A stretch of 64,000 nucleotides of DNA from positions 1,051,071 to 1,115,070 of the forward strand of contig NZ_LR732328.1 of NCBI RefSeq assembly GCF_902506325.1. The letters run 5' to 3'. This DNA is from Limnobacter sp. 130 (GTDB taxonomy: Bacteria; Pseudomonadota; Gammaproteobacteria; Burkholderiales; Burkholderiaceae_B). Shown here piece after piece: positions 8,121 to 55,174 of the stretch (positions are counted from its first letter, which is position 1; every line of letters begins with the position of its first letter). Both the position numbers and the translations under genes were made by a program. The notes under the pieces are model-generated. The model searched no databases and was not told the origin of the DNA. It saw only the letters and a list, made by a program, of their open reading frames with translations.

Positions 8121-8197
<77 letters not shown>

Positions 8198-8557: not shown

Positions 8558-8811
8558 GGACGCCGAGATCATTAACTGAATTGAGGGAACGACCGGATAA
8601 CGAGCGCAGTTTTTTTGTTTAGCTCAATTAAAATCGTATTTTATGGGCACAAAGATACGTTATTTGGCAGTAACTATTGGAGATGACTAAAAGTGCTGTG
8701 CTGACCTTCGGGAAGCTGTGCGGGCGCCCTTGGGTTAGAGATAGCTGTCGCACTGGCCGATAATCGGCCTTACCTGACATTCGAGGCACATGGACAAACG
8801 GGCTGGTCTTG

Positions 8812-8952
8812 GGCCGGAGCGGACATTAGGACTTACTGCCGGAATGTCAGAGTTATTGGCGAAAGCAGACTTCTATATTTAGGCAGTAGTCGATGATGAG
8901 GTTGACCTTCGGAATCGAGTCCCAGTCTCACTGTTTGGGGGCGAATAACCAG
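8812..8952 (+). repeat. Left ~140-bp imperfect inverted repeat of the defence island
   Basis: This stretch matches the reverse complement of 15070-15209 over its whole length with one 1-base gap. The inner ~60 bases (about 8893-8952) are almost identical; the outer part keeps blocks such as GACATTAGGACT and GTTATTGGCGAAAGCAGACT. It ends 155 bases before the stop codon of the ATPase gene. Confidence 0.88.
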
Positions 8953-9107
8953 GGATTATTTTTTATCCTGTTCAAGCAATGTTTAACAATCAATTGCAAT
9001 GGCTGAGTTAAACAAATAATTCGCGATCTTAGGATATCAACGCCGAATTCAAGGTGTAGAGGAAGGCTATTAGATTAATGAAAAGGTCAGGTCTGAGCTG
9101 CCGAATT

Positions 9108-10907: not shown

Positions 10908-11401
10908 AAAAGCCGCCTTTGATCTGCCGATTCGACCTCAGCACCCCAAAGGTGTCCTGCGTCGGAGAATATCTTGAGGAGTTCTGTTGAATCTGTAGCT
11001 CCAAAGCGTTCAGCGGCCCAGGCGCACCGCTTTTCTAGTTCCCTCCAGTACCGTGACGAAAGTGATCCGACCATAGTAAAGCTACTTGGTCCCGCCAAAT
11101 ATGTCATGCCTCTGTCGTCAAGCACAATATCAACAAGACCTCGCGTACTCATGAGATACAGGCCTTGCTCGATGCGCTCCCGGCGACTAAACAACTCAGC
11201 GTTACGGTATGGAACAGGGGTATGCAAGCTCGCAGGTCCACCGACGTCTTGCGAATAGACTATTGCATAGTCGAGGAGAACCAGTTTCTGTAGGTCAGCG
11301 CCGCCAGGTCGCAGCGCGAAAAGAAGGTAGACCATTCGCAGTCCGAGCTCGAATGGTGTGTTAAACAGCTCCGGTTGCTTGCGTATTTTTATCGAACCCA
11401 T
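10904..11401 (-). CDS. ABC-3C middle component (MC) protein
   Basis: The 165-residue protein has no enzymatic motif. The segments FNTPFELGLRMVYLLFAL, KLVLLDYAIVYSQD, and RRERIEQGLYLMSTRGLVDI resemble the winged-helix-like middle component of ABC-3C systems, which links ATPase and effector. The start at 11401 (MGSIKIRKQPELF) is preferred over 11434 because it shortens the overlap with the effector gene to 13 bases and begins at the conserved region. It sits between the nuclease effector and the ATPase, the expected order. Confidence 0.8.
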   Translation of the reverse strand: MGSIKIRKQPELFNTPFELGLRMVYLLFALRPGGADLQKLVLLDYAIVYSQDVGGPASLHTPVPYRNAELFSRRERIEQGLYLMSTRGLVDIVLDDRGMTYLAGPSSFTMVGSLSSRYWRELEKRCAWAAERFGATDSTELLKIFSDAGHLWGAEVESADQRRLL

Positions 11402-12456
11402 TTGAGTTGCTTTTCGTTCACCAGGTGATGGCATGCGCCAGGTAGGTCGCCCCCTCTGAGTCGGGTATATAGAACGCTGTCCGTCACACTTAAGGTAGTA
11501 GCCGCCATTATCGCGGCCTCATGTCGTTCTAGTCCCGTCTTGTGCAGTGGACTCCTTACTACGAGGCGCACACCCTTCAACACCATACCCAAAAGGGTAG
11601 CGAATTCATCTTCCGTATAGATATCTCGGCTGAACCGCTTAAGACCCTCGGCCGAATAAAAGGCTTCTCGTGCAGAGGCAAGGTGCTCTCCGTACTCTTC
11701 AGACGCAACGACGTTTGCTAAAGACATCTCTGAACCGCAGTGCTCAGCATAAGCTTTGACAAGCTCTTCGATATATATAAGTTCCAGAGTCTCAGCTTGT
11801 TGAGGAACTACAGGGTCGTCGCCTCGCTCGGGTTCGATACCAAAAAGCTTGTAGTGAGCCTTAGTATCCTTCTCGTGCCAAGTAAGCAGATCATGGACTT
11901 GGCATTCCTCGAAACGTGAAAAGTCGAAGGCTTTTACATAGGCCTCCATAGTAGAAGTAAGCTTAGAAACGTCATCCTTAAGACCATGGCTGCCACTCTT
12001 CCATGCTACTAAAAATGCCTTGCGGAACTCCTCAGGTTTCGCAATCAAGTCGTGGAGGTCCGGTCCTAAATTCCGAGGCGCGCAGAAATAGTACTTACGA
12101 GGAACTGGAAAACTGTTGGCCATTAGGTGGCCAAAAAGCTTCACTAGCTCAGGATATGCATTTCCGGGCGTAAGACGCTTTTCGTAGTGCTTGGCCTGAT
12201 ATAGATCCCACCGGTCGGCCACCAGCGCAGGCTCGAGTCGAGCCTCCACATCTCGCCCTTTGTCTCCAGCGTTGCCAAGCACCTTTACAGAAGCATACTT
12301 TGCGCCATTAACCTCACGATGCCGGCAGGCAGCCTCAATAAATTCTTCCCACTGCTTATCGGAGATGTGCAAAAGATAGACGGCAGGTGGTACGGCTCCA
12401 CGCTTGACAACATACTGATTAGGTTTCGGTCCGGCTTTTGGGCTCTTTGTCGACAT
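11389..12456 (-). CDS. ABC-3C effector: PD-(D/E)XK nuclease with C-terminal helical domain
   Basis: The N-terminal ~130 residues look like an Mrr/REase-type nuclease: WEEFIEAACRHR supplies the helix-borne acidic residue, GDKGRDVEARLE the catalytic Asp, and YQAKHYEK the Q-x-K of the PD-(D/E)XK core. The C-terminal ~150 residues (ELIYIEELVKAYAEH onward, through LERHEAAIMAATT) resemble the ABC-3C C-terminal domain that docks to the middle component. It is the first gene of the three-gene unit. The likely role is DNA cleavage on infection; target and trigger are unknown. Confidence 0.8.
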   Translation of the reverse strand: MSTKSPKAGPKPNQYVVKRGAVPPAVYLLHISDKQWEEFIEAACRHREVNGAKYASVKVLGNAGDKGRDVEARLEPALVADRWDLYQAKHYEKRLTPGNAYPELVKLFGHLMANSFPVPRKYYFCAPRNLGPDLHDLIAKPEEFRKAFLVAWKSGSHGLKDDVSKLTSTMEAYVKAFDFSRFEECQVHDLLTWHEKDTKAHYKLFGIEPERGDDPVVPQQAETLELIYIEELVKAYAEHCGSEMSLANVVASEEYGEHLASAREAFYSAEGLKRFSRDIYTEDEFATLLGMVLKGVRLVVRSPLHKTGLERHEAAIMAATTLSVTDSVLYTRLRGGDLPGACHHLVNEKQLKWVR

Positions 12457-12800
12457 TTGTTGTTTTGGGCTGCTCTATCTGACTTAATGGGCACATCTTC
12501 TTGCCAACCCATCGAGTTCACGCGGGTAGAACAAGGTGTGTCATGCTGAGTGGAATCGGATGTCGTGTGAAGACTCCCAAAACTGAAAAACGATTCATTT
12601 TATAAAGGTTAACATATCAATCCCCGTTTATCATCTAATCGCGGAAGAGACATATTAATAATTACTGGTTCGCTGTTTGATATAGGCTTTTTCGATTAAG
12701 TCGAACATGATTTTTCTTGCTTACGATTAAGCTAACCGGCCGCCAAAAATACAAACCTTGGGAAGTCCGGCGAACGAAGAGAGCAGCGTTGAGCGCATGC
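12457..12800. other. Non-coding gap upstream of the ABC-3C genes
   Basis: The 344 bases separate the ABC-3C unit from the Abi_C gene. The stretch is AT-rich in the middle and must hold the minus-strand promoter for the effector gene, but no promoter or operator stands out clearly. No short gene was recognised. Confidence 0.5.
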
Positions 12801-13553
12801 TTAGATTTTATCATTGCGCGATTCCCAAGTTTCGATAAGAAATAGCGTTGTGGCGCCAGCCAGGTTAACTGCTAATTGAGCATGCCTGGGGGCTGGTTTT
12901 ACAGGTGCTTTGCCTTGGCCGTGTGCGTCGCCAAGCCTATTTCTCAACGAGCCAAGCCCAATAACCACCGAGGTAACGCCGCCAAGAATTTGTTTGAAAA
13001 TTTCTTCTGTGTGTTGGCTGGGAGAAATATTAAGTTCTTTCGCAGTGATCCTATATAGTTCAGGAAGCTCAATCTTTTGTTTATCGTATTCAATGCGTTT
13101 ACTGTCCAGGATGTGCTTGCACACAGACTCCAGTAGCGTCCTACTAGCTGTAATTGCCCCTTCTGGATCAATGCTCCTGCGGTCTAATGCTTTTGCCCAG
13201 ACGGAGTGGACGCCTTCCGCATCAAAGCTTTTTAGTCCTTCTGATATCGTAGGGTCAGCGGGCTTTTTATTTTTCCCTTCAAGGAAATCTAGTAGGAGCG
13301 AGAACTCTGAATATATAAAGTCGCGGCGTTCTTGGTATTTAGCATATTCATATTTTATGAAGCTCCAGAACTGGGAGAGATCTCGGTTTGTACGAACGAA
13401 TTTAGGTAAAAACTCGCAAGTGGTTGGATTTTCGTTGAAATATTGTCGTAATGATTTGTAGTCACGATCCTCCCCAGCTCCGCCGGTCGAAACAGCAATA
13501 AGCATATTCTGGAGATATTCAGCTTTTTCTGCATCAGATCGAAGATCGTTCAT
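12801..13553 (-). CDS. Abortive-infection-type protein with Abi_C domain
   Basis: The 250-residue protein has an alpha-helical N-terminal half and a C-terminal Abi_C-like domain (ITASRTLLESVCKHIL, then LRNRLGDAHGQGK and RHAQLAVNLAGATTLFLIETWE). Abi_C domains are found in phage-abortive-infection proteins and are probably HEPN-like all-helical folds; RNase activity is possible but not shown. It lies 59 bases downstream of the Mrr-type gene on the same strand, so these may work together as a module separate from the ABC-3C unit. Confidence 0.8.
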   Translation of the reverse strand: MNDLRSDAEKAEYLQNMLIAVSTGGAGEDRDYKSLRQYFNENPTTCEFLPKFVRTNRDLSQFWSFIKYEYAKYQERRDFIYSEFSLLLDFLEGKNKKPADPTISEGLKSFDAEGVHSVWAKALDRRSIDPEGAITASRTLLESVCKHILDSKRIEYDKQKIELPELYRITAKELNISPSQHTEEIFKQILGGVTSVVIGLGSLRNRLGDAHGQGKAPVKPAPRHAQLAVNLAGATTLFLIETWESRNDKI

Positions 13554-13612
13554 TGTAAAAACCTAATGTTTGAATTAAGGGGCGCCGTTAGGCCTCTTAG
13601 TTGAAAGATGGG

Positions 13613-14371
13613 TTAGCTTTCTTGGTAGTCATCCAACCACCTTACGATTTCGTTGTAATCGGCGAGCGCCATATCCCATTTGCTAGCGGCTTCGTTTTCC
13701 ACAAACTCCTTAGCTCCTGATGTGAAAGTTGACGTTGTAGCCAAAATTGTCTTGTTTGGCCCATCCTTAGTATTCATTACTCCATGTAGCGCTCGGACAA
13801 TATCAACGCCCACTTTATTATCCTCAGCGTAGTGCTTGCATTCAATAAAATACTTACTTCGAATGCCTAGTCCATCGGTGTAAACAGCGATGATATCTTT
13901 TCCGCCGTCGCGGGTTTTCTTCGTTAAATCGACTATGAATCCTTTTGCTCTAAATATCTCCGCGACCACCTCTTCAAACTCCCTTGAGGAAATATCGCGG
14001 AGTAGACATGGATTGCCCTTTAGGGCAGAAACCAGTTCCGAGATTGACTCGTAAAGCTGGAATACATCTTTTGCACTGTAAATTTCGCGCAAGAATTCAA
14101 ATACTGGCTCATCGTCCGTCTGCGCGCCTGTAGAGTTGTTTAAGACGAAATTTAGGAACTCAACAGGATATTCTGAGGCTTCAAAAGCTAATGAGATCGG
14201 TCGGTTGCACTTTGGGCAGTCGAACTCGTAGGTTATTTCATAAATGTTTTCAGACCCCATCGAGCGTTCGGAGCCACCGATGCATTCGATGTGAAAATCA
14301 TCAACAGGGATTTCTGCACCGTCACCGCAAGTGGTGCACGTGTATTGGATGGATCCTGAAAATTTCCACAC
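13613..14371 (-). CDS. Zinc-ribbon Mrr-type restriction endonuclease
   Basis: The 252-residue protein starts with a probable zinc ribbon (CTTCGD near residue 12 and CPKCNR near 53), followed by a helical linker and a C-terminal Mrr_cat-like domain. The catalytic core is visible: FEEVVAEIFRAKGF, RDGGKDI (Asp) and FIECKHY (E-x-K), then ATTSTFTSGAKEF. Mrr-type enzymes cleave modified or foreign DNA. It sits 39 bases downstream of the small helical gene and upstream of the Abi_C gene, all on the minus strand. The substrate is unknown. Confidence 0.86.
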   Translation of the reverse strand: MWKFSGSIQYTCTTCGDGAEIPVDDFHIECIGGSERSMGSENIYEITYEFDCPKCNRPISLAFEASEYPVEFLNFVLNNSTGAQTDDEPVFEFLREIYSAKDVFQLYESISELVSALKGNPCLLRDISSREFEEVVAEIFRAKGFIVDLTKKTRDGGKDIIAVYTDGLGIRSKYFIECKHYAEDNKVGVDIVRALHGVMNTKDGPNKTILATTSTFTSGAKEFVENEAASKWDMALADYNEIVRWLDDYQES

Positions 14372-14410
14372 GTTGAGATCTCCGAGAAAGCTAAAGTTTG
14401 AGCAGACCGG

Positions 14411-14917
14411 TTAGGTCTCACTTGTTTTGCAGACTGGCGAAAGGACATCCTGAACTTCTTTTTCAATTGTAATTTCGTCGGCCGCTTCCTCAAGAAAGCG
14501 TTCCACCAGCGGCAGATCGGGAAGCTCATACCCCGAGAGAAGCGAGTTGAAGTTTGAAATAGCTCGATCAAGCGTTTCTCTGGCTTCGAACCTGGGGTTC
14601 ATTAATAGCTCAAGTCCCGTTTTGCCAGCGTGATGAGATTGGTTGTAGGCGTTGTTGAGGAGGTCGCCAATGTCCCTCTCCGTCGTCGGCTTGGCGTCGG
14701 AACCTGACTTTTCCTTGAGGGCATTCGCGATTTTGACAATGCTAGTCCGTAGTCTTGAGAACGCTGGATTGATACCATGCAGATGCAGGTATCCACCGAA
14801 CAACTGTTCCGCAGCAGCGGCCAGAACTAGTGCAGAGTAGTATCGACCGCCGAAGTAGGCTGCGAGTGCATCCTCCAACTGCTGAAGGGCCATGTCAATC
14901 TTCTTAACTTCTTGCAC
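14411..14917 (-). CDS. Small alpha-helical accessory-island protein (HEPN-like, unproven)
   Basis: The 168-residue product is predicted mostly helical. Segments such as YYSALVLAAAAEQLFGGYLHLHG and DIGDLLNNAYNQSHHAGK, then DRAISNFNSLL, recall a group of uncharacterised HEPN-like proteins common in defence and integrative islands. A canonical R-x4-6-H motif was not seen, but NQSHHAG occupies a similar place. Translation could also start at residue 9. It is first in the three-gene set with Mrr and Abi_C. Confidence 0.6.
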   Translation of the reverse strand: MQEVKKIDMALQQLEDALAAYFGGRYYSALVLAAAAEQLFGGYLHLHGINPAFSRLRTSIVKIANALKEKSGSDAKPTTERDIGDLLNNAYNQSHHAGKTGLELLMNPRFEARETLDRAISNFNSLLSGYELPDLPLVERFLEEAADEITIEKEVQDVLSPVCKTSET

Positions 14918-15069
14918 AGATTCTCCAAATGACGAGTGTTGTGAGGCCTAACTTGACTTAACGAACAATAACGGCGATATCCATTTATTCGAACAGCGTA
15001 AGTTATTTCTTTAACTTATTTATTTCAAATGCTAACTAAGCATTGCATGAACGGGATTAAAAACAAAAT

Positions 15070-15209
15070 CTGGTTATTCGCCCCCAAACAGTGAGACTGG
15101 AACTCGATTCCGAAGGTCAGCGCCATCATCAACTACCCCCCGATGTCGGAGTCTGCTTTCGCCAATAACACAGACGTTTAAGCGCTTAGTCCTAATGTCT
15201 GCTTCGGCC
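15070..15209 (-). repeat. Right ~140-bp imperfect inverted repeat of the defence island
   Basis: Reverse complement of 8812-8952 with one 1-base gap. The near-identical inner half (15070-15130) faces the island genes, ending 153 bases upstream of the first gene start at 14917. The two repeats bracket all six defence-type genes and nothing else. Confidence 0.88.
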
Positions 15210-15267
15210 GACTAACAGTCACCCGTCAACACCACCTTTTCAAAACGGCTATCTCCCACTTCACCAT

Positions 15268-45006: not shown

Positions 45007-45505
45007 ACAGTCTCCTTTGGCATCACGATAACGCAGAAGGAATTCCGAAATATTAGCAATCAACAATAAATATCCATTATTCCCAAGAATACTGAAGCTT
45101 AATTCACTGCTGATGAAGGACATCGAAAATCTAACCTCGCAATCTTCAAAGCAACTTTTGAACTGGTTAGCTATGAAAATAAGATTTCTTTTCCAACGAG
45201 ACGTTCGGAACATTTAAAAGCCTAAGATCGCTGCTGCAATATAAATTACAGCGCGATTTGATCTGGATGATTCCTCGAATTTCTGATCATCTCAAGTTCA
45301 AAGCATTCCGCCTTGAGTCCCTCACCCTCCCTTGTCAAAAGTTGTCTGTCCGTTTAGGACTGATCAGTTTCACTTTCATCAACAAGTAAAAAGCCTGCAA
45401 AAAGTCCAAAATTTCTTCGATTTTGGCACTTGCGCAAATGAAGACTTTTGCTAACTTGAATTTACCCCGCTGATCTTTTGCGGGATTTTTCAAGAGAGGA
45501 AAAGT
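45007..45505. other. Non-coding left flank of the integrase region
   Basis: About 500 bases, AT-rich, with no convincing gene. It contains an inverted pair CCAAAAT/ATTTTGG at 45406-45426 that runs into TGGCACTT, similar to repeats at 53891 and 54076, and a terminator-like hairpin at 45466-45490 before the first gene. The left end of the mobile element probably lies in this stretch. Confidence 0.55.
45466..45490 (+). terminator. Terminator-like hairpin before the excisionase-like gene
   Basis: The stem CCCGC/GCGGG with a 9-base loop is followed by ATTTTT, 15 bases before the ATG at 45506. It may block read-through into the integrase genes from outside, or sequester their leader. Confidence 0.6.
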
Positions 45506-45733
45506 ATGAGTACAGAGTATCTAACCACCGCCGAACTCGCCGGGCGGCTCAAATACGATGAGCGAACCATCCGTGAAAAACTCATGGATTCAGTGTTGCT
45601 TGAAGGGGTGCATTATCTGCGTCCGTTTGGGCGTCGCAAGATTCTTTTCATCTGGCAAGCCATTGAAGAGGATTTGAGCAAGGGCCCAAAATTCTCCGTG
45701 CCCATGGCCAACGGAGGTGTTCTCCATGGCTAG
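45506..45733 (+). CDS. Excisionase-like helix-turn-helix protein
   Basis: The 75-residue protein opens with a MerR-type/excisionase helix-turn-helix (YLTTAELAGRLKYDERTIREKL) followed by a short wing (FGRRKILF). Such proteins bend DNA and direct an integrase to excision, or act as regulators. It is preceded by AGAGAGGAAAAG and overlaps the start of the integrase gene by 8 bases, which supports the recombination directionality role. Activity is inferred. Confidence 0.72.
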   Translation: MSTEYLTTAELAGRLKYDERTIREKLMDSVLLEGVHYLRPFGRRKILFIWQAIEEDLSKGPKFSVPMANGGVLHG

Positions 45734-46991
45734 TATTCGCACCCGGAAGCAGACCGGAAAACTGTACCTGGACTTTTACTTCGATGGCGCGCGTTACAGG
45801 GAGCAAACCGCCCTGCCCGACACACCAGAGAACCGCACCAAGCTCGGTAAACTTGCTGACAAACTTGAGCGGGAAATTGCCCGAGGCAAATTCAACTACG
45901 CCGAGTTCTTTGGCAAACCTGCCAAGGAACCCCGCGTAAAGGCCTCTGATGCGTATCCGAGACCTGGTGGCCATCATCGTAACTCTGGCGTAGAGGTAGC
46001 CAGTCAAGTGAATGCCCCTGCGGTGCAGACACCCACTTTCTCGGAGTTCTTGGATATCTGGCGAAATGAAAACTTCGTGCAGTTTCGAAAGAGTTACCAA
46101 AGAACTGTAGAAGACATCTTCAAGGCCCACTTGGTGCCCAAGTTTGGGAATACGAGGGTCGGAGACATTCGACGGGAAGACCTTTTAACCTTTCGCTCAG
46201 TCCTCGCCAAAGCACCGGGGCGTAAAGGTTTAACGATGTCTCCCAAGCGAGTGAACGCCGTCATGGCACTGTTAAGTCAGGTCATGAGTGAAGCCTCCGA
46301 CCGGTACCACTTTACCAATCCGTACCAAAACATCAAGTCTCTTCGCTTACGTAAACCCGATGTGGAGCCTTTTACCTTGCAAGAGGTGAACCTGATTCTG
46401 AACACGGTTCGTGAAGACATGCGCAATTACTACATTGTGCGGTTTTTCACGGGCATGCGGACGGGCGAAATTGATGGGCTGAAATGGAAGTACGTTGATT
46501 TGGAACGCCGCCAAATTCTGATCCGCTCGACCATTGTCGCTGGGATCGAGGAAGAAGACGGCAAGACCTACGACTCCATACGGGACATTGAAATCTCAGA
46601 AGTCGTCTGCCAAGCCTTGAAACGGCAGCGGCTTGTGACTTATCGCAAAAGTGACTATGTGTTTTGCAACAGCGTGGGCCAACCTCTGGACCACAACAAC
46701 GTCACCAAAAGGGTTTGGTATCCCCTACTTCGCCACCTTGGGCTTGCACGCAGGCGCCCTTACATAACCCGCCACACAGCGGCCACCTTGTGGCTTGCTG
46801 CCGGTGAAAACCCACTTTGGATTGCCAGACAGCTGGGGCACAGCTCAACCGAGATGCTCTACAAAGTGTACGGCAGATTTGTTCCCAACCTGACACGCCT
46901 TGATGGCTCGGCTTTTGATCGATTGCTGGCCACCAACACCAACATTGGTGAACTGGGCAACGCTTTGCAACTGGAGGTGAAAAATGGGTAA
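45726..46991 (+). CDS. Tyrosine recombinase/integrase with arm-binding (DUF3596) domain
   Basis: The 421-residue protein (start at 45726, MASIRTRKQTGK) has an N-terminal arm-DNA-binding domain of the DUF3596 type (TGKLYLDFYFDGARYRE), a SAM-like core-binding domain (around 115-215) and a catalytic domain. Catalytic residues seen: Arg in GMRTGEIDG, the RHT box in YITRHTAATL, His in QLGHSS and the nucleophile Tyr in EMLYKVYGRF. It is an intact phage/island-type integrase. It overlaps both its neighbours by 8 bases, so the three genes form one operon. Confidence 0.93.
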   Translation: MASIRTRKQTGKLYLDFYFDGARYREQTALPDTPENRTKLGKLADKLEREIARGKFNYAEFFGKPAKEPRVKASDAYPRPGGHHRNSGVEVASQVNAPAVQTPTFSEFLDIWRNENFVQFRKSYQRTVEDIFKAHLVPKFGNTRVGDIRREDLLTFRSVLAKAPGRKGLTMSPKRVNAVMALLSQVMSEASDRYHFTNPYQNIKSLRLRKPDVEPFTLQEVNLILNTVREDMRNYYIVRFFTGMRTGEIDGLKWKYVDLERRQILIRSTIVAGIEEEDGKTYDSIRDIEISEVVCQALKRQRLVTYRKSDYVFCNSVGQPLDHNNVTKRVWYPLLRHLGLARRRPYITRHTAATLWLAAGENPLWIARQLGHSSTEMLYKVYGRFVPNLTRLDGSAFDRLLATNTNIGELGNALQLEVKNG

Positions 46992-47814
46992 GTCCAGCTT
47001 TTTTGGTGAAACAACCACCGCAGTGCAAGGGATTGTCACTGGATCATGGGTCAGTGAATTTGAACACGATGGCCAGGTGAGCTATTGCTTACAGACCGAG
47101 GTCTACGATTCTTGGCACGTTCATTATTTTCATGTGTACACCTTGGTACCGGCAAAAAGGATAGAAGTGGGACGATTTGTTCTGATTCATCCTTTGGGCA
47201 AGAAACGACAGGCTGATCCAATATTCGACACCGAAGCGATCTTCAATGAAACCAGCTTTGGTATCGAGCACAATCCATTTGATTTCTTGCCAGCAAGGAC
47301 CAAGGAGCAGCAAAAGTCCAAGGGAGTGTTGGTTTGGTCTTACTCCCATCTTCAAGCCGAGTTGAAAGAGGTCGTCCTACGGGTCATTCAATTAAGACCG
47401 GATCTTTTTGTATCGTCTCTCGCAACTCCAGGCCTGCTTCAGATAATCAGCGAAACCAGTGAAAAACACTCAAAACGGGTTCCCTTGCGTATGGCATCGG
47501 AAGATGACGAGGTTTCAATGGAATCGCAGCCAATGCACTTCGCACCAATCGCGGCTTTTTTGCAGATGTTTTGCAAAGCCAACCGAAACTTTTGTACCGG
47601 GTGGCCTCAGGGCGTGCGGGTTTCATTTTCGGGGTTTTGGCAGTTCAGCAACCTGCGGCCTGGCGATGAGAGATTGTTAGCGAACGCGCAGGAGCTGCTG
47701 CACTCGGTTGGACAGATCCTCGAGGAGCACGGTTTTCAGAAGGCTCCGGATTTCATTAGAGTCAATGAAAAGTACTTTCTAATGGCCGCTCTTGAGCGAT
47801 ACAGGGAATGCTAA
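46984..47814 (+). CDS. Uncharacterised protein coupled to the integrase gene
   Basis: The 276-residue protein was not recognised. The N-terminal ~75 residues look like a small beta domain (AVQGIVTGSWVSEF, then VGRFVLIHPLGKKRQ), possibly OB-like; the rest is helical. Its start overlaps the integrase stop by 8 bases with a GGAGG site, so it is translated with the integrase and is probably part of the element's core. No catalytic motif, signal peptide or membrane segment is visible. Confidence 0.7.
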   Translation: MGKSSFFGETTTAVQGIVTGSWVSEFEHDGQVSYCLQTEVYDSWHVHYFHVYTLVPAKRIEVGRFVLIHPLGKKRQADPIFDTEAIFNETSFGIEHNPFDFLPARTKEQQKSKGVLVWSYSHLQAELKEVVLRVIQLRPDLFVSSLATPGLLQIISETSEKHSKRVPLRMASEDDEVSMESQPMHFAPIAAFLQMFCKANRNFCTGWPQGVRVSFSGFWQFSNLRPGDERLLANAQELLHSVGQILEEHGFQKAPDFIRVNEKYFLMAALERYREC

Positions 47815-47982
47815 ACAGCCAAGACAGTAGGTTATCAGCGCTTGATTTTCCATGCAGGAAAGACTTTCCTGTGTGGATTTTTTCTTTGCGGAAACGAAAT
47901 TGGGGATAGGTTAAAAAAGCACCGTTAGGGCGGGCTCAGTAATTTTCTGATGGACGCTGCGAAACAGATCGCATAATATAAA

Positions 47983-48002
47983 TACTGTTTTTATATACAG
48001 CA
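47983..48002 (+). promoter_or_regulatory. LexA (SOS) box
   Basis: TACTGTTTTTATATACAGCA matches the proteobacterial LexA consensus, with perfect CTGT-N8-ACAG half-sites and an AT-rich spacer. It ends 7 bases before the ATG at 48010, so LexA bound here would block transcription or initiation. Confidence 0.85.
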
Positions 48003-48009
48003 CTTAATT

Positions 48010-48351
48010 ATGCTCTTTAACCTCACTCTGCTTCGCGAACGCGGCAAACGCCTGGATGCTCCAAGCGTAATCCACGATGATGCGGTCATCAAAAGTAACC
48101 AGGATGGCAAATTCATGTCTTTAAGCGTGAATTCCTACTACGGCGGGGTGAGTCGAGCACCAGGCCTTTATGAAGCAAAATTGATGAAATTCAATGCTGA
48201 TGAAATTGTGTTCCTCGGATTCGAAACGGTGGAGGGGCGAGCCTATGTTCAAGAATGGAAATTGACACCATCGAAAGTGTCTTCAACCTGGCATGTCGTG
48301 AGAAATGAAGAGATGTCGACGCATCACACCCAGCGGTTGATGGATGCTTAA
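48010..48351 (+). CDS. Small SOS-box-controlled protein of unknown function
   Basis: The 113-residue product (MLFNLTLLRERGKRL...) was not recognised. It is a compact mixed alpha/beta sequence without signal peptide, membrane segment or catalytic motif. Placed behind a consensus LexA box, it should be induced by DNA damage. Its stop is 6 bases from the stop of the convergent trio operon. In mobile elements SOS-induced small genes often trigger excision or inhibit the host, but no role can be assigned here. Confidence 0.72.
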   Translation: MLFNLTLLRERGKRLDAPSVIHDDAVIKSNQDGKFMSLSVNSYYGGVSRAPGLYEAKLMKFNADEIVFLGFETVEGRAYVQEWKLTPSKVSSTWHVVRNEEMSTHHTQRLMDA

Positions 48352-48357
48352 ACTGTC

Positions 48358-49155
48358 TCATTCATCAATTAGCTGCTCAATGGTTGCACTGTTTACCCTT
48401 TGCATTCCTTTTCGTTTCTTAAGACTAATGCGACAAATGAAGTTCGCAGGCTGACCGCTGCGTAACAGCTTTTCGAATCGATCCAGATAATTATTTTCTT
48501 CATCGAAAAGATATGATGGCCGAAACCTCACCGGAAATGTCTTTTGATTCACAATCACCGGATTAGTTTTGTGCCAGCGTACCGACTCAAGGACTACAGA
48601 TTGACGTCCTTTGAATCTAACTGTGGCCTGAAAACTCAACCGATGTTCTGTATCTGGGCCATTTTGCTCAATGGTTTTCAAGTGGTGATTATTTGCCCAG
48701 GACTCCGTCGTCCAATGTGAATCAAGCAAAGAGCGCAAAATAGAAAACGCTTGATATTCTTGCGGCGATAGGGATTTGAGAGGCTTGAGTTGCTGGGCCT
48801 GTAGCAGCGTTTCAAGCATCATCGGAAGCCTAGCGAATTCTTCAAGACAGCTTTTTAAAATTACCTCGATTTTTGCAGCTCGATCAACGTCGAATTGCAA
48901 CTGAAGCTGCCGAGAGGCAATAAGAACTGGTTGGTAAAAAACCTCCTCACGATGCGTACTAGGATTTATTCGATTTTCCAGGGCACCGGAAATTGTAAGC
49001 TCAGGTATGAGTGCAAAAACAGGCGATAGCACAGCGCGGACTTTTCGATCAATTTCCTCAAAATCACGACTATGTAGCTCATGAATGAACTTGCTTATCT
49101 TCATTGGCCAGAGCCAATCTAACGGAATTGCCACTTTTTCAATCGAGCGCTTCAT
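48358..49155 (-). CDS. Third protein of the recombinase trio, unknown function
   Basis: The 265-residue protein (start at 49155, MKRSIEKVAIPLDWLW) has no recognised domain. It has a helical middle and a basic C-terminal part (SLKKRKGMQRVNSATI). Its ATG overlaps the stop of the 900-residue integrase-like gene (ATGA, 4 bases), so it is translationally coupled. Position and coupling match the third, non-recombinase member of mobile trios such as GmtX, though no homology can be shown by reading alone. Confidence 0.65.
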   Translation of the reverse strand: MKRSIEKVAIPLDWLWPMKISKFIHELHSRDFEEIDRKVRAVLSPVFALIPELTISGALENRINPSTHREEVFYQPVLIASRQLQLQFDVDRAAKIEVILKSCLEEFARLPMMLETLLQAQQLKPLKSLSPQEYQAFSILRSLLDSHWTTESWANNHHLKTIEQNGPDTEHRLSFQATVRFKGRQSVVLESVRWHKTNPVIVNQKTFPVRFRPSYLFDEENNYLDRFEKLLRSGQPANFICRISLKKRKGMQRVNSATIEQLIDE

Positions 49156-51854
49156 AACTTCCCCCTCTGGTGAATATCCCAAATAACTACCTGACAAAAA
49201 AGAGCCGCTTGCAAGCAAACCCCAATCGAAGCCCTGTTGCCAGGTCTTGATCTTCTTGGTGTCAAAATGCTAATCAGCGCATTCTTTTCGCTGTTGAACG
49301 CTTTTGAAGTTGATCCTGAATTCGGCTTGAAAAGATGCAGCCGCACATGCTTTCTTCCATTGCCCCTGCAGTAACTCACTAGTGGTGCATGAAGATATGA
49401 ATATTTGAATAGATTGATTAGCTGATCACTGTCACTTTGATTTACACGTACTCCGACCTCAAAACTGCATTGCTCGGCCTGAACCCCTGACGCTTTTAGA
49501 AGCGCGATGATCTTTTTGAAACGTGGATCATTTAGCGGAACAACAAGGTGTCTTGATGTAAATATTTCACGGAGATAGAAATAGTCTTGCCCCTGGTTAA
49601 AAGGACCAGATATCAAAGCAAGTAACATGGCTTCAGTCGTGCGAGCAAAACCATGACTAAATGCTTTTTCCAACTGCGAGCAATAACGCAGAACGTCTGG
49701 GTTCCACACAGATGCCGATTCGAATCGACCGTACTGTCCAAGCGTCCAATAAAGTCGATCAAAGATTTCTCGATCGATACCAAACTGCTGAATCAGCTTG
49801 GCTTTATCAATCCCTTCAGCGCTGGTCAACTGATTCACCAGCTTAAAAACATCCAAAGGGGTCAAATCCGTAGCTGTTTTGCTCTCAGGCCAGATTTCCT
49901 CAAGACTTGGAAACTGGATCAAGGATTGGTCAAAAGGTGGAGATATTTCTTTTTCTCTATCCCCGTAGATCAGCCTGGCATGCGATCGACCGATGGAAAC
50001 ACCTCGAGAATTTCCCCGTCTAACAGTCGATTTGTAGGTATTTGCGCTCCCAAAACCTAACCAAATCCTGAAGTCCCACGATGGCAGGTATTCGCTCGGG
50101 ATCGAACTCCAGAGGTTTCTCGCAGCCAAGGCGATCAAATAATCTACACAGTGTGTGTAAGTGGTCCATGACGTGGAAAAACTCAAATGACCCAGATCTG
50201 CCACGATCGCGAAAACTGGATTGTGTTGCTGAGAATATCGGGAATGGCCGTTGAAGAGTTGCCAAAACTCGGAGGTTACTTTCGAGTGGGACAGCCAATG
50301 AAAACGCGCGCCTGGTTCACCTGTTACCACTTTCAGAATTCCGTTCAGAGTGGCTCGGAACGTTGCGCTACGATAAACGTCTTCAGTCTCGTAGTTTCCC
50401 CATAGAGATGATTTAGGGCCTGCCTGATCAATGGTGATGCGATAGGTCAGAAACTGCTCCAGCAGGCGTGCTCGATCTATGGGAATGCGCACGGTGCGCT
50501 CGCCAGCGTCAGATTTACTGTGCCGGATGGTCACCAACAATGATTGCTCAAGTTTCGATAGCTGAAAATCCCCAATCTCGAGTCGCAATAGCTCACCGAT
50601 ACGCAGTCTCACCAATGTCGCTAAAATAAGGGCTACTGAACAGTTCACCGCAAGGGTCCGATCAAGGATTGCTCGGGCTTCCTGGATCGCATCTAGAATT
50701 TCACTTGGCCAAATGAGTTCCGCCTCAATAATCCCTCTGTGGCTTCGCATCTTGGCTATGTCCGTCTCAATAGAATAAACATCCGCCAAGTACACTTTGA
50801 ACACATCTAAACCGGCATTAAGTTGTGGGGCTGATGAACCAGCAACACTCGAAGAGACTTGGAGCTCGGACGCCTTTAAGTGCTGGGTGATGAAGTCGAA
50901 GACAGATAAATGGGGGTTTAGGCTTTCGAACAAATGGCGAAAGACAAGCCGTGCATACTGTTCGATAGTGCTTGGCTTTAGCTTTGATTTGTATCGCGAA
51001 CCGCAGACAATCAAGTAGCGAACCCAGTCGAGATATATATAACCAATAGTGTCTGGTTCCAAAAGCCGTGTAACACCTGAGTCGATTCGAATCAGAATTG
51101 AGTTCCTAGACATGGAACCCTTCACATGGTTTTTAAGCCAATCTTGAACCTGCTTGGCAAACCACCAGTCAGAATCCTCCACCTGACGGTTTTGAATTCC
51201 TAAAGCCAAGGATTCATTGATTTCATCTGCGTCAGCTTTAGATCTACATTGAACACCATTGGCCCGTTTAAACACTCGTTCTTCTAAGGATGCGTACTCC
51301 AAAAACCCGGCAACTGATGCAAAAACAATCGGGAGTAAATATTGCTTTAACACGAGCGCAAACCCACCCACGAAACTTTCAGTTCGATCCTGACCCCAGA
51401 ACCATTTATCAATCCGGGTCAGTGTTTTCTTAACATCGAGTTCAACATTGCCAAGGTCAGCATGGTGTTTGGTGATTAAACGAATCGTCGCAGCGCTTAT
51501 CAAAACGTTAATCACTGCCCCGTTCTCCAGCACTACCGACACACGGCTTTCGATAGTGAGTTCTTTCTGAGAACTAGCCAAAATCGTACAAACCACCTCC
51601 TCGAGCAAATCTAGACGCAAAACCAGGTCATTAATCATTAGGCTAAGTAGCAAACGCTCAGCAATCCCTAGGCGCTGAAGTTCCTCGGTCCGAACGCGTT
51701 TCCATCTTTCAATAAATAATTTTTCAACAAAGGCTTTATTGGGCCTAATGCTTACGACTACGTCACGAAAGTCGTTTTGAGCTGCGTAAAAATAGCTGTC
51801 AACCAACTTAGTACTGTTGTCGCGCTTGCTGAAAAGAGCCACTTGCGTCATCAC
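49152..51854 (-). CDS. Large tyrosine-recombinase-like protein of the trio
   Basis: The 900-residue protein carries a tyrosine-recombinase catalytic domain in its middle (about 390-600): VRLRIGELLRL (catalytic Arg), RHSKSDAGERTVRIP (Lys region), FHWLSHSKVT (His; the usual second Arg position reads Ser), DLGHLSFSTSW (His) and TTYTHCVDY (nucleophile Tyr). Long N- and C-terminal regions of unknown function surround it. It is twice the size of ordinary integrases, as in GmtZ-like trio integrases. It starts 5 bases after the preceding gene's stop. Confidence 0.75.
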   Translation of the reverse strand: MMTQVALFSKRDNSTKLVDSYFYAAQNDFRDVVVSIRPNKAFVEKLFIERWKRVRTEELQRLGIAERLLLSLMINDLVLRLDLLEEVVCTILASSQKELTIESRVSVVLENGAVINVLISAATIRLITKHHADLGNVELDVKKTLTRIDKWFWGQDRTESFVGGFALVLKQYLLPIVFASVAGFLEYASLEERVFKRANGVQCRSKADADEINESLALGIQNRQVEDSDWWFAKQVQDWLKNHVKGSMSRNSILIRIDSGVTRLLEPDTIGYIYLDWVRYLIVCGSRYKSKLKPSTIEQYARLVFRHLFESLNPHLSVFDFITQHLKASELQVSSSVAGSSAPQLNAGLDVFKVYLADVYSIETDIAKMRSHRGIIEAELIWPSEILDAIQEARAILDRTLAVNCSVALILATLVRLRIGELLRLEIGDFQLSKLEQSLLVTIRHSKSDAGERTVRIPIDRARLLEQFLTYRITIDQAGPKSSLWGNYETEDVYRSATFRATLNGILKVVTGEPGARFHWLSHSKVTSEFWQLFNGHSRYSQQHNPVFAIVADLGHLSFSTSWTTYTHCVDYLIALAARNLWSSIPSEYLPSWDFRIWLGFGSANTYKSTVRRGNSRGVSIGRSHARLIYGDREKEISPPFDQSLIQFPSLEEIWPESKTATDLTPLDVFKLVNQLTSAEGIDKAKLIQQFGIDREIFDRLYWTLGQYGRFESASVWNPDVLRYCSQLEKAFSHGFARTTEAMLLALISGPFNQGQDYFYLREIFTSRHLVVPLNDPRFKKIIALLKASGVQAEQCSFEVGVRVNQSDSDQLINLFKYSYLHAPLVSYCRGNGRKHVRLHLFKPNSGSTSKAFNSEKNALISILTPRRSRPGNRASIGVCLQAALFCQVVIWDIHQRGKL

Positions 51855-51859
51855 AGGCC

Positions 51860-53812
51860 TCAGCCTTGAAGACCGGGCAATGGAAGTACGCCTATCTGTT
51901 TCAATAGATCCTCAGTGCTCCGAACTACATTCGTTGCGGATTCTTCCGGTGAAAGGTCAACTCCCATGTTATTGCTTGATTGAAAGATCGATCCGTGTCT
52001 TGAAATTCGATTGATCTCCACCCGCTTTAAACCACAAAGATGAGACTGAACGAAATGACGACCGAAGTTCGGTGGCAAATTAAAGCCGTGCAGATTAAGC
52101 GCATCAGACAAATGATCTGATCCCAGTCGACTCAGACCATTTCGGGTTAGGCGGAATAACAGTGGCTCAGAAGAGCCTAGCTCTAGAATTTTTGTGATGT
52201 TGTTAGGTATCTTCTCAGCGCATTCCAGTTCTCGAGATTTCCCCCAAAGTTGCTCAAGGTGTTCGATATAAAGATCCAGCTGGGCTTTTACAATCTGACC
52301 AAATGGGACCTCGACGAACTCGGTCACCTGATGGCTGTCTTTGTCGTTAAACACCACGAAATCAGCTCCAATTGAGCAACGCTTGAGGGGAAAACTTTGC
52401 GTGGGACGCAAGGCCAATGCGATTGAACACATGAATGCAGTCGCAATTGCAAATGCGTTGTGAAACGTCGCAAGCTCTGACCACTTGCTGTTTTTCGTAG
52501 GTCTTAGCGAATCAACTTGTGTTTTTAATTCAGTCCAAGCTCTAGCTATGTACTCTTTCCGAACTTGGGCAAGCGCGCCAAACCCCCGCTCAGAGCTCAT
52601 ATCAATCGATACTGTTGGTATTCCAAACGACTCTAAGACCGAACAAAATAATTTCGCGGCATCTTTCTGTTTTATATTTCTATAATATGCAGGCCCACGA
52701 GACAGCAAGCGCGGATCAGAAAATGCGAAAGCAGCCAGTACATCATCACCACACTGATTCACACCTTCAATCGACAATCGATTGCGCAGATCTGTAATTT
52801 CAGGGTTCTCTCGATTGATGTCTTTCTCAGAAACCCCTATCAACGCACCCAGATTCTTTGCATCAGGGTTTTGGGTCAAAGCATACTGAAGCGGATTCTT
52901 TAGTGCTTGTGCAATCGGCCTTGCCAAATACCACTGATCTGCTTGCTGATTTGAGTCACCATCCACGCGTCCTTTGGGCATGAACAATGACCGATTCGTA
53001 TAGATGCGTGACTCTCGAACGGACAGCCAATGAAAAGCGCCGGGCTCTGGCCAACAAGGTAAAGCCACGGTGAAACTTGGAGGACAATTGATATGTAGCG
53101 ATAGAAGCTCACAAATTGATGGGCCATCGCCCTGCTTCGCACCTTCCTGAATCTGCGTACTGGCTGCAATCAAGGTCTCTTGCGAAAAGCGCGCGTGGGT
53201 GAGTAAAACTCTCTTTTTCTGCAAGTCGTGCTCGCCATGTAAACGCATGTGATAAGCCTGCAAGCGATCGAGCGATGATCGCACGGAGCCTTCAATCAAA
53301 CAGTCCAACACCTTCTCAGATTGAGACTTGGCTCGCTCTAATGCATGCTTAACCTGAATATCAGGGCGAAACGAAAGATCTTCGAGAGGGTCGCGCTTTA
53401 CATGTTTGCTTAGAATTTGAATCAGCGTTCTAGGGTGATAGTCCCCAAGGTACATCGCTGTTAACACCAGCGCGAGATCTAACTTCTGTGAATCATTTAC
53501 CCGGCGATATGCCATCAGGCATGACAACGGCCCTTGCTCTGGAACCAGTTTGACTCCCCAGTCCTTCGACGGAAGGCATTCGAGACGATGCTTGATTTTG
53601 GTGAGAACAAAGCTTGCCTCAAGCAGCTTTGGAAAGTCGATACGTTCCTTCGCCACTCGCTCGAGGGCATCGATTAAGTTTTGAACTGCGCAGTGAAGAT
53701 CTGCCGCGCAATGCGCCAAACCAAACACTTTGATGAACCTCGAGAGGTCATGATCAGCTATGATTTGCTCGATTGATTCGTCTGTGAAAACTCTTGAATT
53801 TTCCATTTGCAT
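51860..53812 (-). CDS. Degenerate tyrosine-recombinase-like protein of the trio
   Basis: The 650-residue protein has a C-terminal region that can be read as a tyrosine-recombinase fold: ALALRPTQSFPL (Arg), VVFNDKDSHQ (Lys), NFGRHFVQSHL (Arg-His box) and ISRHGSIFQSSNN (His). No Tyr is seen where the nucleophile should be. The N-terminal ~350 residues are unassigned. Translation may start at the third codon (53806), which has AGGGG at a better distance. It leads the three-gene operon and may be an accessory or inactive partner. Similarity to GmtY-type proteins is a hypothesis. Confidence 0.65.
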   Translation of the reverse strand: MQMENSRVFTDESIEQIIADHDLSRFIKVFGLAHCAADLHCAVQNLIDALERVAKERIDFPKLLEASFVLTKIKHRLECLPSKDWGVKLVPEQGPLSCLMAYRRVNDSQKLDLALVLTAMYLGDYHPRTLIQILSKHVKRDPLEDLSFRPDIQVKHALERAKSQSEKVLDCLIEGSVRSSLDRLQAYHMRLHGEHDLQKKRVLLTHARFSQETLIAASTQIQEGAKQGDGPSICELLSLHINCPPSFTVALPCWPEPGAFHWLSVRESRIYTNRSLFMPKGRVDGDSNQQADQWYLARPIAQALKNPLQYALTQNPDAKNLGALIGVSEKDINRENPEITDLRNRLSIEGVNQCGDDVLAAFAFSDPRLLSRGPAYYRNIKQKDAAKLFCSVLESFGIPTVSIDMSSERGFGALAQVRKEYIARAWTELKTQVDSLRPTKNSKWSELATFHNAFAIATAFMCSIALALRPTQSFPLKRCSIGADFVVFNDKDSHQVTEFVEVPFGQIVKAQLDLYIEHLEQLWGKSRELECAEKIPNNITKILELGSSEPLLFRLTRNGLSRLGSDHLSDALNLHGFNLPPNFGRHFVQSHLCGLKRVEINRISRHGSIFQSSNNMGVDLSPEESATNVVRSTEDLLKQIGVLPLPGLQG

Positions 53813-54184
53813 CCCCTGATTACCCGAAGGTCATGGGGAAATGTTTTCACAGATTTGGAAATCGTGTTTTGGTTGAAAGTGCCTTTTTTTGGCACTTTCA
53901 GTAGTGAAGTCTAGTTAGCAGTAAGCCATCAAGAGATTCTTGAAGGATGGAAAGTGCCGAGTACAGGCTGAGCGATTCACCATAGCAACAGGGAATCCCC
54001 AACAGCCCAAAAGTCGCCATAAGGTAATTTTTTCAAAGTCATGAAAAAGAGTTTTCAGCGAAACGGCCATTTTATGGCACTTTCAGTACCTATTTACCTG
54101 CGATAACATTGCAACGTAGGCGTGTCGGATATCAAGTAACAAACTGACCAAGAAAAGTGGGAAATTTGCCCTAGTCGAATCATC
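53813..54184. other. Non-coding right flank of the trio element
   Basis: The 372 bases hold a perfect 10-bp inverted repeat TGAAAGTGCC-T7-GGCACTTTCA (53874-53900), a 13-bp direct repeat GGCACTTTCAGTA (53891-53903 and 54076-54088) and another GAAAGTGCC near 53950. The promoter of the trio must lie here; no gene was recognised. Confidence 0.6.
53874..53900. repeat. 10-bp perfect inverted repeat upstream of the trio
   Basis: TGAAAGTGCC and GGCACTTTCA flank seven T. The right arm continues as GGCACTTTCAGTA, which recurs at 54076-54088. It could be an attachment site, an operator of the trio, or both. Confidence 0.7.
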
Positions 54185-55057
54185 CTAACGATAAGTGGCA
54201 CTAGATCTTTTGACAGTGACGCCGACAAATCCATTCTTCTCAAGAAATTTGCTGACTACGAATTCTGGCGTGATGTTCTTAGGACCTAAAATCACCTCCC
54301 TTATCGCCGGTATGTCAAGGTTCTTCAATGCAATTGAACGGAAAGGTATAAGGCGTTCAGCTGAGATACGGAACTCACACTCATCTTCAAGTTCGTTGAA
54401 GAGATGAGAAATAAGTCGCCATTCCGCCTCTTCCCTGAATGCAGGATTCTTCAATCTAAATAAATGAGACAAAACCATAAAGACCTTGCTCATCATGTTG
54501 TGCACCGCTTTACCGTATTCCTCTCTTGCTAATTCGTATATTTTTTGGCCAGCTTCATGATCAAGCCCCATCAACATTGAGGGAGGGCTAGGTGGATTCA
54601 ACTTGCCTATCAATATGTCTTGTAAGATTCTCTCAAAAATCGGCTGCAACGCACTCTCGTGCTCAGCCAACTCATAAATTACTCGTTCAGTGCTAAAGCC
54701 TGGTGTATTTTTATCCCGGCTATTATTTAGCGACTCCAAGTATTCCTTTGAGAATCCAATCGAAAAACCTTGTCCATCTCCTGAGTAACCACGCCACTGA
54801 CTGAGTAGATCACCTTTTTCTGACAAACAAAAACCCAAGCCGTCGATCACTTCCTCAAGCGACTTGATTGCATCAATCACCATAGACGCCTGTTTTTCAT
54901 TCAGTTTATTGCGGTCAAATAGTGTCCTAAAAGTAGAGCCAACCAATTTCCCCTCCATCGCGTCATTGGAGAGCGACAAGGATGACAACCAAATACAGCG
55001 GTTACCGATAATTGATAAAAATGCCGCCGGATTACAGTAATGGTAAAGAATATCCAT
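54185..55057 (-). CDS. DUF2971 family protein
   Basis: The 290-residue protein matches DUF2971: LYHYCNPAAFLSIIGNRCIWLSS at the N-terminus, then SQWRGYSGDGQGFSIGF and a C-terminal REVILGPKN. The family is of unknown function and is often found in accessory and defence-rich regions. The start at 55057 is chosen because AGAGGG lies 7 bases upstream; an ATG five codons earlier overlaps that site. It has no obvious operon partner. Confidence 0.82.
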   Translation of the reverse strand: MDILYHYCNPAAFLSIIGNRCIWLSSLSLSNDAMEGKLVGSTFRTLFDRNKLNEKQASMVIDAIKSLEEVIDGLGFCLSEKGDLLSQWRGYSGDGQGFSIGFSKEYLESLNNSRDKNTPGFSTERVIYELAEHESALQPIFERILQDILIGKLNPPSPPSMLMGLDHEAGQKIYELAREEYGKAVHNMMSKVFMVLSHLFRLKNPAFREEAEWRLISHLFNELEDECEFRISAERLIPFRSIALKNLDIPAIREVILGPKNITPEFVVSKFLEKNGFVGVTVKRSSATYR

Positions 55058-55174
55058 GAAATCCCTCTGCATTAAAACAAAACCATTTATAAAACTGCAC
55101 TGTACCGTGTGCTGCAGCTGTTCTTTATCAGAACAATAAGTACAAAGCGAAATGCAAAATATTCAAGATGTAGT

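Follow-up and report, generated by a model that had tools for sequence, protein, structure and literature searches.

A coupled gene trio encoding a pair of giant recombinase-like proteins lies in one arm of a putative integrative element of Limnobacter

Introduction

Several islands that carry cargo genes (GMT, GInt, SE, RIT and Tn554) use at least two recombinase-like proteins. At a locus of Limnobacter sp. 130, three coupled genes, here called Y, Z and X, follow each other and the first two encode very large proteins. What does this trio do, and is it a unit of its own? To answer this, we analysed a stretch of 64,000 nucleotides (NCBI RefSeq assembly GCF_902506325.1, contig NZ_LR732328.1, positions 1,051,071 to 1,115,070), in the following the window, which is part of contig C3 of genome G000 (3.28 Mb). 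We find that the trio shares constant ends with a second, convergent arm that encodes a tyrosine integrase (Int), and that Y and Z have giant relatives in other Pseudomonadota. Our preferred reading, to which we assign a probability of roughly 0.55, is that of a discrete integrative element whose right arm is the trio: Int would cut the DNA, and Y, Z and X would form an accessory complex.

A conserved trio of genes in Limnobacter

A preliminary description of the window had noted three coupled genes of 650, 900 and 265 codons, separated by a gap of 5 bases and an overlap of 4. Our check of the open reading frames (ORFs) confirmed the coordinates and the spacing. All three genes lie on the minus strand: Y (53812-51860, 650 aa) ends 5 bases before Z (51854-49152, 900 aa, GTG start), whose end overlaps the third gene, X (49155-48358, 265 aa), by 4 bases. 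For X, the program-made ORF list has a TTG start 21 codons earlier. The order Y-Z-X and the full length of the genes are kept in other Limnobacter genomes, with identities to the window of 58-81% for Y, 59-74% for Z and 65-82% for X. The ratio of nonsynonymous to synonymous substitution rates (dN/dS) is 0.13-0.20 when compared to three other copies (eight comparisons with a computable dS; for Y against the copy L011, dS is saturated and dN/dS not computable). The trio is thus under purifying selection, and its full-length recurrence in the same order together with these ratios shows that the three genes are no chance ORFs.

The host had been described as betaproteobacterial in appearance, which is supported. 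We detected seven copies of the trio, all in Limnobacter, of which two are in G000 and one each in G006, G009, G010, G013 and Limnobacter sp. P1. The contig of P1 stops within orf276 (a gene of the other arm, see below), and its left end and Int arm lie outside of the sequence. A further copy in G010, found by a DNA search with the right end, is partial and comprises Y residues 1-270 and the right end. Among 149 relatives, Z is present in five genomes (own genome counted), which belong to a single genus; the own genome has it twice. When 399 genomes at the level of the order were searched with Z, the only match beside the own genome was a short fragment (E 7e-4), and a pattern-based scan of GTDB contigs yielded four loci (G006, G009, G013 and P1). 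On plasmids, no relative of the window Z was found at E 1e-5 and none of Y at 0.01; with Z of L011, the plasmid search returned seven C. difficile records only, over one third of the length of Z. Viral contigs searched with Z gave no match.

The trio shares constant ends with an integrase arm

When comparing the copies, we observed that homology extends beyond the trio and then stops, with most flanks differing outside of it. This delimits an element at 45313..53979, with a left end between 45313 and 45332 and a right end at 53979, which measures about 8.7 kb when it is empty of cargo. Thus, the three genes described initially are real, but they are only part of the unit, which spans from ~45.3 kb to 53,979. 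Its order is left end, a helix-turn-helix (HTH)-like ORF, Int, orf276 and orf113, followed by the convergent X, Z and Y, a hairpin and the right end.

The first arm is read on the plus strand. The HTH-like ORF (45506..45733, 75 aa) lies directly upstream of Int and is also found in L046 (75 aa) and L058 (87 aa); its HTH character was judged by eye and it is a putative excisionase. Int (45717..46991, 424 aa) is a canonical tyrosine integrase with the Pfam domains Arm-DNA-bind_2, Phage_int_SAM_3 and Phage_integrase, and its invariant columns include R248, K283, R352, H353, H375 and Y385. By its domains, its residues and the position of the ends, a complete catalytic integrase therefore lies within the conserved ends of the element. 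Of 16 genomes of the genus, the five with the trio, and no others, have the close form of Int (94-100% identity); more distant integrases (22-52%) occur in 6/16. The end of Int is overlapped by orf276 (46984..47814), which is conserved in the copies and has no family in NCBIfam, Pfam, PHROGs or PADLOC. The last gene, orf113 (48010..48351), is 85-94% identical between copies and has weak matches only in PHROGs (best E 0.016).

The right terminal motif (53965..53979) has the reference sequence CAGCTGGGCGATTCA, from which the window differs at three places. This motif (GATTCA or a variant) lies ~158-169 bases upstream of Y in 7/7 copies, a count that rests on a pattern loosened to fit. As an independent check of the right end, the match of the partial G010 copy ends exactly at window position 53979. 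The left end, CCCCTCAATTAAGCCCC, is exact in four of the six copies with a left end read (L046, L048, L055 and L058) and not exact in the two copies of the own genome. Upstream of Y, an inverted repeat with perfect 9-bp arms and a T7 loop (53875..53899) is exact in the window, L053, L047, L049 and L056, and has four changes in L057 and L015. Just outside the element, at 54005..54089, lies part of a second right end, probably the relic of another copy. L007 has two right-end motifs, and between them is a stretch that encodes an SGKV-repeat protein; L009 also has this stretch.

These arrangements bear on the idea that the trio is a domesticated passenger with a role in regulation or defence that is no longer part of mobility. 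The trio lies inside the same ends as Int in all six copies with both ends read, and the existence of a truncated copy and of duplicated right ends further argues against this idea, although Limnobacter Z lacks one catalytic arginine (Arg-II, see below) and a DUF2971 protein outside the right end resembles a candidate defence protein. We thus regard a passenger as very unlikely.

The DUF2971 protein, encoded beside the element at 54185-55072, matches the PADLOC candidate PDC-S31 (E 4e-7). A gene for an SGKV-repeat protein adjoins the right end in two copies (L049:2701-3042 and L053:15621-15950). Two genomes whose further flanks differ have the same module of two genes (144 and 308 aa) directly at the left end (L048:6682-7978 and L055:14226-15522).

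A slot between the arms holds cargo in two copies

The two arms converge, and the stop codons of orf113 and X leave a slot of 6 bases between them (48352..48357). This spacing is kept, and the slot thus empty, in five of the seven copies (window, L007, L010, L011 and L015). The other two are filled, with 6 kb in Limnobacter sp. MED105 (L009/L016) and 8.2 kb in G009 (L008/L014). The MED105 cargo encodes TerB-type, BrxC/D-type and DEAD-helicase proteins, which match SngA (E 5e-103), SngB (2e-180) and SngC (4e-277) of the Shango defence system in PADLOC; by the PADLOC names, Shango consists of SngA, SngB and SngC, and all three are thus present. Among the proteins of the G009 cargo are a ParA-type ATPase as well as PhoD-like and metallophosphoesterase proteins; three proteins of this cargo have no convincing PADLOC match. 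Unknown defence genes might also be sought in this slot. A likeness between the sequence of the slot and the left end is seen by eye only, and we make no claim of it.

The position of the cargo could be explained if Int alone moved the element and the trio were an integron-like device that captures cargo at the X/orf113 slot. Cargo lies at this junction in both filled copies, and in L008 it is flanked by a 62-bp direct repeat of the 3' end of X (90% identical). However, the repeat comparison revealed no such repeat around the cargo of the second filled copy (L009), there are two filled copies only, and no cassette array is present. We therefore consider a pure capture device improbable.

Y and Z belong to a family of giant protein pairs

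None of Y, Z and X has an accepted family in NCBIfam or Pfam; because Pfam gave no family for Y and Z, both are taken to be without a zinc finger. Against PHROGs, Z has a weak match to phrog_1 (E 6e-4, residues 407-521). For Y, no known fold was found in the library and solved-structure searches, with noise-level matches only (PADLOC HamB1, E 0.011), and X has three NCBIfam matches far below the cut-off (e.g. BenD, 17 bits vs 380). The profile search against solved structures returned nothing for Z and one noise-level match each for Y and X.

A class-level search with Z detected 2/369 genomes, the own genome and G586, which encodes a protein of 1033 aa (E 2.3e-5). The G586 locus (L066) contains an Int, an HD-domain protein and then, convergent, the 1033-aa protein (Z') and a protein of 831 aa (Y'). 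Searching with the G586 protein in turn detected 6/229 genomes, own included. From these genomic loci and two plasmid loci we built profiles of Z' and Y'. Between Z and the Z' profile, the match has an E-value of 9.5e-16 over 510 columns; between Y and the Y' profile, it is 2.5e-9 over 292 columns. As a control, Z and Y were compared by profile to six ordinary Ints; both comparisons were empty, and the link to the family is thus not a generic integrase signal. These profile matches place Y and Z, as divergent members, in a family of giant proteins that are encoded next to each other, often with an overlap and sometimes as a fusion.

With the Z' profile, we obtained matches to ordinary Ints (E 1.2e-7) and also to tyrosine recombinases of solved structure, best to 3nkh (E 2e-8) and further to XerH and XerD (4e-4 to 8e-4). 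The Y' profile matches neither Ints nor solved structures, hence the recombinase nature of Y' rests on the order of its motifs. The initial view of two large recombinase-like proteins can therefore be kept for the core of Z, based on a weak PHROGs and a strong profile match, whereas for Y it is based on family membership and motif order.

To estimate how widespread the pair is, we used a Y' profile without Limnobacter sequences, which detected 17 places in 14 of 359 sampled Pseudomonadota genomes. The Y-type partner is thus found in ~4% of these genomes, and the pair occurs in at least two classes of the phylum. At 16 of the 17 places, Z' lies directly 3' of Y' on the same strand or is fused to it; the 17th place is a 3-kb contig. 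Among the 16, one place has a Y' frame of only 137 aa, and two places have fused frames of 1872 and 1157 aa. Natural Y'-Z' fusions are also encoded at L078:2374-7419 (1681 aa) and L083:6633-12110 (1825 aa), one of them on an Acinetobacter lwoffii plasmid. The Limnobacter pair fits the family, as Z has a recombinase core with long parts on both sides and Y lies directly upstream and is coupled to it. With Limnobacter-free models and a smaller set, both proteins were detected in four Limnobacter stretches, Y with E-values of 6e-12 to 2e-6 and Z with 3e-18 to 2e-14. Phages, searched with Z' of L066 only, gave no match. Among the listed titles and abstract beginnings of open PubMed Central papers, we found no description of the giant pair.

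The third protein does not follow the pair. X has no clear relative outside Limnobacter, and its profile matches nothing in the non-Limnobacter Y'/Z' stretches; a weak match to a 223-aa protein of L078 (p223, E 0.02) was not used.

Active-site residues of Y and Z

In a survey without the His-II column, 24/24 Z' proteins from outside Limnobacter carry Arg-I, Lys, Arg-II, the next His, His-III and Tyr. In Limnobacter, Z keeps R418, K447, H519, H523, H556 and Y566 (the last two assigned from the Z/Z' profile comparison, as their columns lie outside the hidden Markov model alignment), and has Ser522 at the place of Arg-II. This serine is found in all seven Limnobacter copies of Z (four of them covered by the survey). 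The window Y keeps R469, K491, R585, H586 and H606 and has no tyrosine at the usual place. Across 29 Y'/Y sequences, the pattern is kept with Arg in 27, Lys in 26, Asn in 27, Arg in 28 and His in 25, and 10 of the 12 departures are gaps. At the expected place of the tyrosine, serine is common (22/29), and four sequences have a tyrosine directly before that serine.

One could read this pattern as an undescribed recombination system with a split catalytic site, where Y would provide Arg/Lys/Arg/His to bind the phosphate and Z the tyrosine, and which together with the distal integrase would form a two-ended island that takes up cargo, phage defence among it, at a constant slot in its interior. 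As Limnobacter Z has lost Arg-II, it would depend on Y. We consider this split site speculative and rather doubtful.

Does the trio move the element or assist the integrase?

In our preferred reading, Int would be the strand-cutting recombinase of the element. Y and Z, with their incomplete tyrosine-recombinase sites in Limnobacter, would bind the ends of the element and perhaps the target together with X. The three proteins would determine the place and manner of integration, and may allow the uptake of cargo by recombination at the X/orf113 junction. Movement and mechanism are inferred here from comparisons of sequences; the constant ends and gene content, the mostly different flanks, the cargo slot, the Y/Z family and the pattern of residues are observed directly.

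Alternatively, the trio itself could be the moving machinery, similar to GInt or SE, in which a large recombinase works with a partner that lacks the tyrosine, and Int-orf276-orf113 a second module that was acquired separately. This is consistent with the catalytic residues read in all 24 Z' proteins, with cargo that starts at the stop of the last gene of the trio, as reported for ginD in GInts (PMC5385486), and with the different rates at which the two arms diverge. Furthermore, no Int of this type is present in the fetched stretch at 17 of the 25 Y'/Z' places outside Limnobacter, some of which are on short contigs. However, Limnobacter Z has a serine for Arg-II in every copy, and within the genus the close Int was not seen apart from the trio. 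We thus see a trio that moves on its own as possible but unlikely.

Several observations weigh against the trio as an accessory arm of an Int-driven element. An Int of the same type occurs at only 8/25 Y'/Z' places outside Limnobacter (5/17 and 3/8), and it is convergent with Z' at 5/25; the Int model includes three of the sequences from such places, and the counts are lower bounds because several fetched stretches end early. In L011, Int is 95% identical to the window and its Int arm as a whole 86-95%, compared to 58-65% for the trio. The different divergence of Int and trio implies that the two arms can part company, and judging from the sequence, the arms of L011 are exchanged, with the change in divergence at or near the X/orf113 junction. 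Flanks are also partly common to two pairs of copies, with 1.3 kb on the left of L048 and L055 and ~0.55 kb on the right of L007 and L009, thus some of the flank evidence could be due to module shuffling inside the tRNA-Met island described below. At the compared loci we found conserved neighbours only and no precise unoccupied target site. Regarding the proteins, the own genome is not called by the Y' profile at E 1e-6 in the search of 359 genomes, Y' is without a profile match to integrases or solved structures, and the structure models of X and Y are poor (mean predicted local distance difference test scores of 44.4 and 35.4, from alignments of five sequences). Lastly, the trio as such is lineage-specific, since X is not conserved outside Limnobacter.

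The genomic context of the element

The element is located within a larger tRNA-Met island. Sequences that resemble the 3' end of tRNA-Met (79-91% identity, ~100 bases or more) lie on both sides in G000, G006, G010 and G013, and on one side only in G009 and around the second G000 copy. As the element lies inside this island with such sequences around it, it may also travel passively. We considered tRNA-Met as the target of the element itself; this is not supported, as the ends of the element are not tRNA sequence.

In the window, tRNA-Met is located at 8121-8197, and a copy resembling its 3' end lies ~61 kb away (G000:C3:1119892-1120293), which places the middle of the window inside the island. 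By eye, from the starts of the ORFs, the same island contains an aromatic degradation cluster (15750-43242; phenol hydroxylase, meta-cleavage type). Near the tRNA, six minus-strand ORFs (9108-14917), one with an ATPase-like P-loop start, have, also by eye, the look of an uncharacterised cluster of the defence type. Inverted copies of an interspersed repeat of ~250 bp, which recurs near several Limnobacter islands, lie at 8809-9036 and 14946-15211.

Other Limnobacter integrases, ~51% identical (L041-L045), were examined as further trio islands and rejected, as no trio gene matched and the ORFs differ. These loci represent another type of Limnobacter island, with conserved ORFs of ~383-535 aa after Int in 4/5 loci.

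Comparison with known systems

The giant pair adds another set to the multi-recombinase islands, in which one partner keeps four active-site residues and not the nucleophile. The natural variants in Limnobacter (Arg-II lost, slot full or empty, two copies in one genome) make the division of labour directly testable.

The layout of the trio had been likened to GmtY-GmtZ-GmtX. With GMT it shares three head-to-tail genes in one operon in the order Y-Z-X, a recombinase core within a protein of ~900 aa (GmtZ has 908 aa in L050) and cargo-like genes after the third gene. It differs by the length of Y (650 aa vs 441 aa in L050), by the missing tyrosine in Limnobacter Y and by the separate Int at the far end. 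The kinship itself did not hold up, and for GMT this is the outcome that the preliminary description had named as refuting it. The NCBIfam models NF040693 (GmtY), NF047926 (GmtZ) and NF040692 (GmtX) gave no match at E<=1 for Y, Z and X, whereas the same models find GmtY, GmtZ and GmtX in the control loci L050 and L051 (GmtZ of L051 below the cut-off). Comparing Y, Z and X by hhalign to GMT alignments of eight sequences also returned nothing; this negative is limited by the shallow Limnobacter profiles (effective number of sequences ~1.4), which were yet able to find the Y'/Z' family. The Y' and Z' profiles do not match GMT either, and no sequence relation of the giant pair to it was found. The same gene order, the similar length of Z and the association with cargo would suit a genuine or diverged GMT member, but given the negative models and profiles and the working controls we rule out membership for practical purposes and hold it to be extremely improbable. 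The wider expectation of a mobile-looking, cargo-bearing element in a betaproteobacterium was right, and one copy bears defence genes.

The following comparisons are by description. RIT, Tn554-like and BIM sets are covered in PMC3414803. As in RIT and Tn554, three coupled genes here encode recombinases or helpers. However, RIT is reported to comprise three proteins that each have a catalytic motif, within ~3.5 kb (PMC3414803), whereas here Y has no tyrosine and X no recombinase match, which sets the trio apart.

The Tsy/TnsF system resembles the element in that a tyrosine recombinase is combined with a small HTH protein and with a partner derived from a recombinase, whose activity can be lost (PMC10293859). 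It is set apart by the zinc finger, for which Pfam gave no sign in Y or Z, and by insertion in comM, which we did not see here.

SE (intA-tfp-intB-srap) combines recombinases, a recombinase-fold partner without catalytic residues and an accessory protein (PMC10214605), similar to what we find here. In Limnobacter, however, gene order and content differ, the genes are split over two ends and the host is betaproteobacterial.

In GInts (ginABCD), one end carries an operon with a degenerate recombinase-like protein among its products (PMC5385486, PMC10214605), and cargo follows from the stop codon of ginD, its last gene (PMC5385486). Similarly, the trio is an operon at one end with a degenerate recombinase-like protein, and in the two filled copies the cargo starts at the stop of its last gene. 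In contrast to the four genes of ginABCD, the operon has three genes here, and the other end carries Int-orf276-orf113 whereas GInts have a short AT-rich end. Tfp and GinC are proteins with a recombinase fold and without catalytic residues (PMC10214605, PMC5385486). By analogy, the role of Y and Z may be comparable to that of these partners in SE and GInt, or to that of the target selector TnsF.

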